The translations under genes were made by a program, and so were the position numbers. 8,971 bases of DNA from Candidatus Sabulitectum sp. (lineage in GTDB: Bacteria > Fermentibacterota > Fermentibacteria > Fermentibacterales > Fermentibacteraceae): NCBI GenBank assembly GCA_023145935.1, contig JAGLDB010000068.1:1-8971 (forward strand), given 5' to 3'. Of the stretch, positions 1,706 through 6,171 are shown piece after piece. Position 1 is the first letter of the stretch, and each line of letters starts with the position of its first letter. The notes beneath the pieces were generated by a model, which saw only the letters and a program-made list of their open reading frames with translations, was not told the DNA's origin and did no database searches.

Positions 1706-2551
1706 CTATCTGTTAACCAGTTCGCATTCCATAAGGCCGACAATATTAAAGGATTCCCCTTCAATGATTCCACGGATCTGAACACCATCACGGTTTTCAG
1801 TCATTCCAGCAGAGATGTCCTCGGGGATATCACCGGTCATTTCGCAGGCTGCGCACTTGCTGCGGGTTTCAGGATCCTGAAGATCAATTCTCACCACATC
1901 ACCAGAAGAAAGAGAAGAGGTAGTAGTAGAGCTGTAATAGCCCTCAACAGTGACTTCCATACCGATCCAGATGTTGAACAGATCAAAGAATCCCTGAACT
2001 TCCACAGCAGAAGTTCCGTCATACGCATAGGGGCTCACTTCGTCTATGGGAACAACAACAGCATCGGTAACAACTGTACCTTCCACCAGTTCAATTCTTC
2101 CTGTCCAGCTGTAATCAACTGTTCCTGATACTGTAACAAGTTCATCCGCAGCAATTCTTAAATTCAGTGTTTCCGGGAATGTAACCTTAACAAGTTTGTC
2201 TCGCTCGCCGGCAGCTGCTACCAGTTCCATATCGTCCTCGATTGTAATGCTGTCGCCGTAATGAACAAAGGGATATCCCTGAATAACAACTATCTGTTCG
2301 TCCCAGGCATAGAATGCGTTAAAAAGAGCACCTGCAGCAACCGGAACATCTGCAGTTACAAATGACGGATCAAGAGTACCTTCGGGGTACAAAGGAGCAG
2401 CTTCTGCTTCAACTGGCGCATCTTCAGCAACTTGTGCGTCCTCTACGCTTTCTGCTCCGAAGCTATCTGCTGGTTCCTGCTGATCAGACTCGCCACATCC
2501 CGCAGCAAGTACTATCAGCATCAGCATTAACATTCCCAATAAACTTTTCAT
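1706..2551 (-). CDS. Lipoprotein with duplicated beta-rich (OB-like) domain
   Basis: The 281-residue product starts MKSLLGMLMLMLIVLAAGC: a hydrophobic signal ending in a lipobox (L-A-A-G-C19), so it should be lipidated at C19 and anchored in a membrane. Residues 20-52 form an acidic Ala/Glu/Asp-rich linker. The rest looks like two related beta-rich domains. LFNAFYAWDEQIVVIQGYP (about 77-95) resembles FFDLFNIWIGMEVTVEGYY (about 188-206), and the ends VTVSGTVDYSWTGRIELVEG and VQIRGIIEGESFNIVGLMEC also match in pattern. The strand and turn pattern recalls small OB-fold proteins, which is an inference. Only the second copy holds a C-x-x-C (KCAACEM, C233/C236). The ATG follows a strong GGGGG ribosome-binding tract. 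It lies 43 bases after the dehydratase gene on the same strand and is probably co-transcribed with it. I cannot assign a function. Confidence 0.75.
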   Translation of the reverse strand: MKSLLGMLMLMLIVLAAGCGESDQQEPADSFGAESVEDAQVAEDAPVEAEAAPLYPEGTLDPSFVTADVPVAAGALFNAFYAWDEQIVVIQGYPFVHYGDSITIEDDMELVAAAGERDKLVKVTFPETLNLRIAADELVTVSGTVDYSWTGRIELVEGTVVTDAVVVPIDEVSPYAYDGTSAVEVQGFFDLFNIWIGMEVTVEGYYSSTTTSSLSSGDVVRIDLQDPETRSKCAACEMTGDIPEDISAGMTENRDGVQIRGIIEGESFNIVGLMECELVNR

Positions 2552-3707: not shown

Positions 3708-3741
3708 AATAGGAAAAGGGAGGGTTCCGGTGAACCCTCCC
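3708..3741 (-). terminator. Strong intrinsic terminator after the selenoprotein gene
   Basis: There is a perfect 10-bp inverted repeat, GGGAGGGTTC (3718-3727) and GAACCCTCCC (3732-3741), with a 4-base loop. On the minus strand it is followed by TTTTCCTATT. It begins 21 bases after the TAG stop of the gene at 3763-4752. Confidence 0.9.
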
Positions 3742-3762: not shown

Positions 3763-4752
3763 CTATCTGATTACGGCAACCTGTGTATTCACAACTTCAC
3801 CTGTATTTGCCGTAAGTCTTATGAAATACACACCTGTCTCTTCAATGCGAATATTCTCAATTGAGCCTGCTGTGAACTGGTAAATGGAACGCCCTGCGAT
3901 ATCAAATATTTCTACTGTTCCAGTTGTTCCAGAGGGCACAAAACTTGAAACAGCAAAAGTACCTGTGGAGGGATTCGGCCAGGCATTAAGAACAGAGCTT
4001 GTTACTTCTACGAGTTCTTCTACATCGTAAATGCCTGTAGAAGTGTCGTGAAGATCAATAAAGCTGGCATTCAGAACTTCCTTTGTTCCTGTACTGAATT
4101 GAACATATGTTGCCACATTTAGATCATCGTAGGGATGCTGAGAAGAATTAAGAGTGTAGTTGCCTGACACCTGAATGGTCTGAGGATAGGAACCGGTAAA
4201 ATTGAGTACAGTACCATTCAGTGGGTACGCAACGGGAATCCACATCATTTCATGACCATTGTAGCCACCCCAGGCTGAAGTTGCCACCTCATGATCTTCA
4301 AGAATAACGGTCCATACCTTAATGGTTCCCGCAGCTGGTGCCTGCTCGGCTGTAACGCTTACAAAGGCTGTTCCACCGTTTTCGTCTCCAACCATATTCA
4401 CATCAATGTCCATATGGCATGGTACTGCAAGTCTGGTGTTTATAGCAGCGTTGTAGGAGGATGAAGATGAACTGGCAGCAAGGCCATCAATCTTTACAGT
4501 GGGAGTTCCAGTGATACCATAAAAACTTTGTCTACCCCAGTTGTAGGAATTGCCTGCCGGGCCATTGTGAAACATGTAGATGGGTGCAACATTACCTGCT
4601 GCTACTATTGGATTAAGAACTGCTTTAACGGCTGACCAGCCGCCATAACAAGAGCTTCAACCAGTTTGAGTGTAGTACTCCCACAAAACAACCCTTTCTG
4701 CTGCGAACCCTGCAACAGATAGAATCAACAGTGCATAAATCGTTAATTTCAT
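3763..4752 (-). CDS. Exported Omp28-like thioredoxin-fold selenoprotein (in-frame UGA = Sec32) with sorting tail
   Basis: Starting at the ATG at 4752 the frame reads MKLTIYALLILSVAGFAAE, a clear signal peptide. It continues VVLWEYYTQTG-TGA-SSCYGGW and stays open to TAG, giving 329 residues with one internal TGA (4657-4659). The TGA falls on the first Cys position of the redox motif, giving U32-S-S-C35. This matches the E-x-(F/Y)-T-x-T-x-C-x-x-C start of Omp28-related thioredoxin-fold proteins. Further family marks are the IYMFHN strand, the RQSFYGITGTPTVKIDG segment with the cis-Pro loop at P84, and a middle beta domain. The end (about 250-329; WPNPSTGTF, VEIFDIAGR, GVYFIRL) is a T9SS type A/FlgD-like sorting tail. 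AGAGG lies 5 bases before this ATG. The later Met60 start has no ribosome-binding site and would remove signal peptide and active site. A SECIS-like hairpin follows the TGA. Role inferred: extracytoplasmic thiol/disulfide or peroxide chemistry. A pseudogene or sequencing error is the main alternative. Confidence 0.85.
4620..4651 (-). promoter_or_regulatory. Bacterial SECIS-like hairpin downstream of the UGA codon
   Basis: Counting the U of UGA as 1, bases 15-22 (UGGCGGCU) pair with 27-34 (AGCCGUUA) around the tetraloop GGUC (23-26; 4634-4637). The stem has 8 base pairs including two G-U. Beyond a single A-A mismatch (14/35), bases 9-13 also pair with 36-40, so the whole hairpin spans 32 nt. 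The apical GGUC and its distance from UGA match the E. coli fdhF SECIS (GGUC at about 22-25, from memory), where loop G and U contact SelB. The hairpin lies inside the coding sequence, as expected for bacteria. Confidence 0.8.
4657..4659 (-). other. In-frame UGA read as selenocysteine (Sec32)
   Basis: This TGA is the only interruption in a 330-codon frame (329 residues plus stop). It lies at the nucleophilic position of a C-x-x-C motif (U-S-S-C). Coding character and family motifs continue on both sides. TGA serves as a normal stop for rimM, trmD and the gene at 475-1575, so it is not reassigned throughout the genome. Confidence 0.82.
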
Positions 4753-4783
4753 ACGAACCTCTTTTCTGAATAGAGTTTCATGA

Positions 4784-4841: not shown

Positions 4842-5807
4842 CTACAGCATCGTGCTGTCCACAACGATGCTCTCAACACTGTTTGCGGTTACAATGGCAG
4901 CTTCAATTGTGTACATCCTCTGACTTCCTGAAGAAGCTATCCAGATCTCAGCTGCTTCTCTTATCCTCTTAAGCTTTGTCTGATCAATTTTTTCCATTGC
5001 CTGCCTGAAGGCACCGGTGAGAGTGGATTTCACCTCAATAAACAACACAGAATTGTCTTTTTCTGCAATAAGATCAATTTCTCCACAGATGGAATGCCAG
5101 TTCCTTTCAAGAATTGTGTAGCCGAGGTTCTCATAATAGCGGGCGGCCCTGTTCTCTGCTGCTTTTCCTGTATCTGGCGGATCCACAGGAAAAAGAGACA
5201 ACTGGCCGGTTTGATACATTCTGCTCAGTGGAGCAAAAGACATTCTATGGATAGGAGAAGGACCGATCTTTTCAAGAACAGTGATGTGAGCTGCTGTACC
5301 GTATCCTTTGTGCCGGTCAAAACCGTATTCGGGAAATTCTTCGCTTGCTTTCAGCATAATATCATCCCGTGTAACTTTTGCGATAACACTTGCTGCAGCG
5401 ATTGAAAGGCTTCTTGAATCGCCTTTCACAAGGAATCTGCAAGGAGCTTCCAGACCGGAAACACTGTTTCCATCAATGAGAAAGACATCTGTAGGTATAA
5501 TGAGAGGGGCCATGGCTCGCTTGAATGAGGTTCTTACAGCCCAGGCCATCCTGTTTCTGTCAATCTCGGAAGAGGAAACAATGCCAACAGACAGAGCCAC
5601 CGCAGCACTCTCAATTTCAGGCTTTAATCGCCTGCGTGATCTATCTGTAAGTTTCTTGCTGTCGTTAAGAATATCATTGTGGAAATCTGAAGGCAGAATA
5701 ACAGCACAAGCCACAAGAGGGCCAGCTAAAGGCCCTCTTCCAGCTTCATCCAGGCCGGCGATCACGCCGTACTCAGATCGGTAACGCTGATCAAAAAGGT
5801 AAAGCAC
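4842..5807 (-). CDS. rnhB: Ribonuclease HII fused to YraN/UPF0102 nuclease-like domain
   Basis: One continuous frame of 321 residues joins two proteins that are usually separate. Residues 1 to about 198 are RNase HII, which cuts RNA in RNA:DNA hybrids and starts ribonucleotide excision. They contain GLDEAGRGPLAGP (D20, E21), LIDGN (D112) and KGDSRSLSIAAASVIAKV (D130). The four acids keep the E. coli spacing (D16, E17, D108, D126), and HKGYGT and GPSPIHRMSFAP end the domain. After a short linker, about 211-321 is YraN, a PD-(D/E)xK-like fold of unknown role, with E218 (AAEN), GEIDLIA (D245) and FIEVKS (E258, K260). The start is ambiguous: GTG at 5807, which I prefer for its AAGG 5-6 bases upstream, or GTG at 5813, one base after the rplS stop. 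A more distant ATG at 5930 would overlap rplS by 116 bases and is unlikely. Both active sites appear intact. Confidence 0.9.
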   Translation of the reverse strand: MLYLFDQRYRSEYGVIAGLDEAGRGPLAGPLVACAVILPSDFHNDILNDSKKLTDRSRRRLKPEIESAAVALSVGIVSSSEIDRNRMAWAVRTSFKRAMAPLIIPTDVFLIDGNSVSGLEAPCRFLVKGDSRSLSIAAASVIAKVTRDDIMLKASEEFPEYGFDRHKGYGTAAHITVLEKIGPSPIHRMSFAPLSRMYQTGQLSLFPVDPPDTGKAAENRAARYYENLGYTILERNWHSICGEIDLIAEKDNSVLFIEVKSTLTGAFRQAMEKIDQTKLKRIREAAEIWIASSGSQRMYTIEAAIVTANSVESIVVDSTML

Positions 5808-5814
5808 TGACACC

Positions 5815-6171
5815 TTACTTATTGTAAACTCTGCGTTCCTTGATTCTAGCAGCACGGCCTGTCTTCTTCCTGAGGTAGAAGAGCTTGCTTCTGCGAACCT
5901 TGCCGTGTCTGGTAATTTCGATTCCGGCAATTCTCGGTGAATTCAAAGGGAAAACCCTTTCTACACCCACTCCGCCGGAGATCTTTCTTACCATGAAGGT
6001 TTCGTCAATTCCGCCGCCTCTGCGGGCAATCACGGTACCTTCGAAAATCTGCACTCTAACCTTATCGCCCTCTATTACCTGATAGTGAACACGAACGGTA
6101 TCACCCGTTCGGAAATCAGGAAGATCTGTTTTGATCTGTGCCTGACCTACACTTCTCAGCAGTTCATCCAT
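5815..6171 (-). CDS. rplS: 50S ribosomal protein bL19
   Basis: The 118-residue product is a full-length bL19, which sits at the 30S-50S interface of the ribosome. Diagnostic stretches are [51 protein letters not shown] and [17 protein letters not shown]. The ATG lies inside the end of trmD (8-base overlap, with AGGA just upstream), so translation is probably coupled. The trmD-rplS order is conserved in very many bacteria. The RNase HII fusion gene begins immediately after its TAA. Confidence 0.97.

Follow-up and report, generated by a model that had tools for sequence, protein, structure and literature searches.

On the complementary strand of an 8,971-nucleotide (nt) stretch of contig JAGLDB010000068.1 from Candidatus Sabulitectum sp. 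(phylum Fermentibacterota; the whole stretch is called the window here), a gene was found that very probably encodes an exported selenoprotein. Its UGA codon 32 would be read as selenocysteine (Sec) by way of SelB, tRNA-Sec and a hairpin, and the product would be a thioredoxin-fold oxidoreductase. This joint explanation is based on the alternation of TGA with Cys codons, a covarying hairpin, Sec genes in relatives, the score of a sorting domain and a predicted fold. The interpretation given in the original prediction, which was made from the letters of the window, is supported.

As had been claimed, a standard gene call starts at Met60 and gives a headless protein (Table 1). Extension upstream in the same frame leads to an ATG at 4752-4750, with a TAG stop whose last base is 3763, no internal TAA or TAG and a sole in-frame TGA, codon 32 (4659-4657). 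The extension recovers a probable signal peptide, as anticipated, and a good ribosome-binding site, the only clear one for this gene. By themselves the 58 stop-free codons are weak against chance (about 0.035); the frame is above chance because of its relatives. Over the 31 codons upstream of the TGA, the window and its nearest relative (locus L001) show 4 synonymous and 0 non-synonymous differences. The functional start might instead be Met60, the ATG at 4575 chosen by standard gene callers, with the upstream part untranslated or reached by low-level ordinary readthrough that gives a regulated extension. This is very unlikely, as the headless form lacks the signal peptide, the first strand and the active site, the sole clear ribosome-binding site precedes 4752, and the Cys homologues are full length.

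The TGA had been proposed to replace the attacking Cys of a C-x-x-C motif, and alignment of relatives bears this out. Among 85 distinct phylum copies the codon-32 column holds TGA in 51, TGC in 22 and TGT in 12; a further copy (L198) has TGC, so that nothing but TGA or Cys occurs in the 86 copies read. The 85 are 142 rows minus identical-context copies and rows lacking the column; the window's own copy was set aside as identical to that of L001 over 93 nt, and the 86 do not include three more phylum copies that lack the column. A match of any kind was present in 38 of the phylum's 42 genomes (in G033 covering the tail only) and at least one match with an internal TGA in 27. The TGA is kept by relatives. 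Of 290 relatives searched, 68 had a match, 31 of them outside the phylum's 42 genomes. Outside the phylum, among the matches listed, the column is TGA in 20/57, Cys in 36/57 and Asp in 1/57, and 20 of the 21 TGA-bearing matches have their TGA at this column. In the other, L161 (position 404 on), the motif is C-G-U-A-A-C, with TGA two codons past the usual column and an 8-bp GGUC hairpin after it, perhaps a shifted Sec.

A single base separates TGA from the Cys codons, and this could be a decaying Cys gene, reduced to a truncated remnant, in which TGC or TGT had mutated to a stop or been misread in sequencing; frameshifts or breaks do occur in a few copies (the L128 region and G002:C186). Random decay had been thought hard to reconcile with the sequence and is extremely unlikely, since 51 distinct copies, taken from independent assemblies and intact in frame around the codon, share the same TGA, the differences upstream of it are biased towards synonymous ones, and a covarying hairpin is confined to TGA copies. 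A code in which the organism reads every TGA as Trp or Cys, with which a frame open through the TGA would agree, has next to no probability: TGA is not generally reassigned, because the 10 other window genes checked (11 in all) contain no in-frame TGA and three others end in it (a 375-amino-acid (aa) open reading frame, trmD and rimM), and relatives possess both tRNA-Sec and SelB. Decay, a general code change and a downstream start were all rejected on this evidence.

The hairpin after the UGA resembles a bacterial selenocysteine insertion sequence (bSECIS). The bSECIS model of PMC13188914 has a loop of 3-9 nt with G in the first two positions, a stem of 4-16 bp, a spacing of 16-37 nt from the UGA and an energy of at most -7.5 kcal/mol; the window hairpin agrees with each of these. 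A hairpin of this shape occurs in 51 of 52 TGA rows, at a spacing of 19 in 44, and 50 of the 52 reach -5 kcal/mol when the stem-loop is scored alone. Any model hairpin is found in 20 of 34 Cys rows, none reaching -5 kcal/mol. In the TGA alignment 91.4% of stem cells pair, 37 cells are changed on both sides, where shuffles give 10.5, and none of the 500 shuffles reaches the covariation score; the Cys-copy alignment gave no hairpin covariation signal. Stem types CAGCU/AGCUG, CAGCG/CGCUG and CAGUG/CACUG swap pairs while the loop GG is unchanged. On synonymous recoding, p ≤ 0.05 was obtained in 39/51 TGA copies versus 4/34 Cys copies within the phylum, and in 12/20 versus 3/26 outside it (L161, whose TGA lies two codons past its Cys, was excluded from the Cys group). 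The SelD genes of the same genomes, which encode a known selenoprotein, have a GG(U/C) loop 22 nt past the UGA in the five copies shown.

The machinery for Sec, whose presence had been named as a check, was sought in relatives' genomes, where selA, selB, selD and tRNA-Sec are present. Among 25 genomes with the gene, selA was detected in 23 at E 1e-15 (21 above cut-off), selB above cut-off in 21, tRNA-Sec at ≥ 68 bits in 21 and selD in 24. One of the 25, G015, a small assembly, lacks selA, selB and tRNA-Sec and has selD, with TGA. ARAGORN gave tRNA-Sec with anticodon TCA in 8/8 loci scanned. The phylum's 42 genomes include 38 with selA, 36 with tRNA-Sec and 35 with selB. Outside the phylum, in counts that omit five further matching genomes, selA and tRNA-Sec occur in 13/13 and 11/13 genomes with a TGA match, and each in 9/13 of those with only non-TGA matches among those listed. 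In G001 (L130, G001:C253) a Sec copy adjoins selD, selA and selB. Another Sec copy, in G017 (L131, G017:C99), lies next to selD and a fragment of selA; the copy next to selA and selB in G002 (L132, G002:C186) is broken. On contig G144:C5 a Cys copy adjoins selA. Several genomes (G002, G003, G004 and others) contain two selD matches with one internal TGA each.

Several results weigh against decoding as Sec. The presence of the Sec genes is known from relatives rather than from the window's own genome, and no tRNA-Sec was found in G001, the genome of the nearest relative. One copy outside the phylum, L206 (G145:C4), has Asp at the codon-32 column; the same genome also carries a TGA copy, L176. 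The published -7.5 kcal/mol (PMC13188914) is reached by only 21 of 52 TGA rows when the stem-loop is scored alone; in L029 the best model hairpin is unstable, at -1.0, and L128 is without one. Of the five measures in the covariation test, two were not above shuffles, namely pairs changed on both sides (4) and further pair types (11), at 134 and 190 of 500. For the window hairpin alone the shuffle z was -1.83, with 8/200 shuffles equally stable, and 1244/20000 synonymous recodings were as stable (p 0.062); judged by itself, this hairpin is not decisive. An Rfam search of 4500-4760 gave no match.

From its N-terminus the encoded protein runs through a probable signal peptide, the segment R-V-V-L-W-E-Y-Y-T-Q-T-G-U-S-S-C, a part resembling thioredoxin and a beta domain to a tail for type IX sorting. 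The sorting domain scores above both cut-offs (PF18962, 36 versus 27; TIGR04183, 36.3 versus 23). In the structure model a strand (22-28) is followed by U32 and then a helix (33-51), with a predicted local distance difference test score (pLDDT) > 90 there. The C/U-x-x-C at the start of the first helix and a match to the HBP35 structure are as in a thioredoxin fold, and P84 is probably the cis-proline because of its TPT motif. Lower-ranked immunoglobulin-like Foldseek matches cover the beta domains only, and a PDB sequence search with the window protein gave one match, which was meaningless.

In the mechanism proposed, the hairpin within the coding sequence, about 20 nt past the UGA, would direct SelB and tRNA-Sec to decode UGA codon 32 as Sec. 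The signal peptide would export the protein and the type IX system would then probably carry it to the cell surface via the C-terminal tail. There the U-x-x-C thioredoxin fold is predicted to act, most likely, as a thiol-disulfide (or related) oxidoreductase, with Sec as the attacking and Cys35 as the resolving residue. From sequence and model we infer selenium incorporation, the export route in this organism and redox activity.

A quick tree of 75 copies (rows < 300 aa omitted, root not inferred) needs at least two Sec/Cys changes. One is L022 (5968-6951), a Cys copy nested in the main Sec clade, which probably changed from Sec to Cys and in which no hairpin of negative energy fits the SECIS model. 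The loci L108 to L112 form another Sec group, separate from the first and next to the Cys group. Tandem copies, each with TGA, number three in L017 and L126 and two in L003, L013 and L028.

A database search with the window protein returned 88 proteins, of which three cover ≥ 97% of the query and none of the remaining 85 more than 88%. Among the 22 that were aligned, 19 begin past the codon-32 column and three (P0056, P0064 and P0065) have Cys there. A genome scan gave 35 loci, every title being Ca. Fermentibacterota or a synonym. Outside the phylum, the public entry for gene L158 is a 604-aa protein lacking its head (P0089) and labelled Gemmatimonadetes bacterium. Many relatives in the little-known Fermentibacterota and beyond, mis-annotated in databases, look like selenoproteins too.

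A wider proposal, which is doubtful at present, is that Fermentibacterota have an expanded set of type IX-exported U-x-x-C thioredoxins, with Sec and Cys interchanging over several phyla, and that their Sec machinery may largely serve extracellular redox reactions. If true, this would be a surface-displayed selenium redox system with tandem arrays, in places adjoining Sec genes. The window gene itself adds a probable selenoprotein family that gene callers truncate ahead of the active site, so that members are stored as headless proteins, and it would place Sec on proteins of a class made for display on the surface of uncultured anaerobes. With its natural Sec/Cys pairs, its tandem arrays of Sec copies and one or more switches from Sec to Cys, the family would provide material on why Sec is used extracellularly.

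Table 1. Features of the selenoprotein gene and its surroundings in the window
Feature	Position	Strand	Basis
Full coding sequence (329 aa; UGA codon 32 read as Sec)	3763..4752	(-)	Single-TGA frame; full-length alignment to L001, 90% identical
Truncated open reading frame from standard gene caller, 270 aa (P0001)	3763..4575	(-)	Call from ATG 4575
Ribosome-binding site AAGAGG	4758..4763	(-)	5 nt upstream of ATG 4752; read by eye
Probable signal peptide, residues 1-18	4699..4752	(-)	By eye; helix 2-15 in structure model
Thioredoxin-like domain and start of next beta domain, residues 19-165	4258..4698	(-)	Alignment, model; U32, C35, probable cis-Pro P84
In-frame UGA, candidate Sec codon of U-S-S-C	4657..4659	(-)	Phylum copies: TGA 51/86, Cys 35/86
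Bacterial SECIS-type hairpin	4626..4645	(-)	8-bp stem, loop GGUC 4637-4634, 19 nt past UGA, -9.4 kcal/mol
Type IX secretion C-terminal sorting domain, residues 258-322	3787..3981	(-)	PF18962, TIGR04183
Possible intrinsic terminator directly 3' of gene	3718..3741	(-)	1 found, shuffles mean 1.0; not above chance

Promoter matches in the window were no more numerous than in shuffles. Gene order around the gene is common to the window and L001 to L004, as far as tested, and the neighbouring genes in L001 are 94-100% identical to the window's. At 4842-5930 (-), RNase HII (PF01351) and UPF0102 (PF02021) lie within one open reading frame; in L001-L005 the alignment of this fused product extends over 308-322 aa. 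A putative lipoprotein with a C-A-A-C motif is encoded at 1706-2551 (-) and matches no Pfam family at E 1.

The protein had been described as Omp28-like. Homology to the Omp28-related outer membrane proteins (PF11551; solved part 2r2c) was upheld by profile comparison (hhalign against 11 PF11551-annotated proteins: probability 99.8, E 1.8e-27, 142 columns); formal membership was not, as the protein falls below the cut-offs of PF11551 (20.1 versus 34.9 bits) and NF033782 (14.1 versus 150). The Sec relative L158, outside the phylum, passes the PF11551 profile (58.9 bits). On sequence comparison the window protein is best described as an Omp28-related, HBP35-like protein with a predicted thioredoxin fold. 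HBP35 of Porphyromonas gingivalis (PDB 5y1a) is 14% identical to it and is described as having two active-site cysteines, with no Sec. Other near systems are AGR_C_4864 of Agrobacterium (PDB 2axo) and DUF1223 (PF06764); the window protein is under the PF06764 cut-off of 30.7, and PMC13188914 lists no Sec form.

That no Omp28 selenoprotein had been described agrees with Table 1 of PMC13188914, which lists 119 selenoprotein families and subfamilies, some of them unnamed hypothetical proteins, and has no Omp28, HBP35, DUF1223 or type IX entry by name. The text of that paper does not mention Omp28, DUF1223, PF11551, PF06764, T9SS or sorting. An NCBIfam scan of the window protein gave no selenoprotein model at E 1. 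Searches of open PMC papers showed, among the papers listed, no link of selenoproteins or selenocysteine with Omp28, Fermentibacter or type IX secretion; those that came up included a study of rabbit diet, a review of phyla and a Helicobacter pylori comparison. The known UxxC thioredoxin-like selenoproteins in that table (Trx, DsbG-like, thiol:disulfide interchange protein, SaoT and others) share the UxxC motif, thioredoxin fold and bSECIS with the window protein, but belong to other families, and none of their names points to an Omp28 domain, an HBP35 domain or a tail for type IX secretion. As far as searched, the decoding mechanism is the known bacterial one and the selenoprotein family is new.
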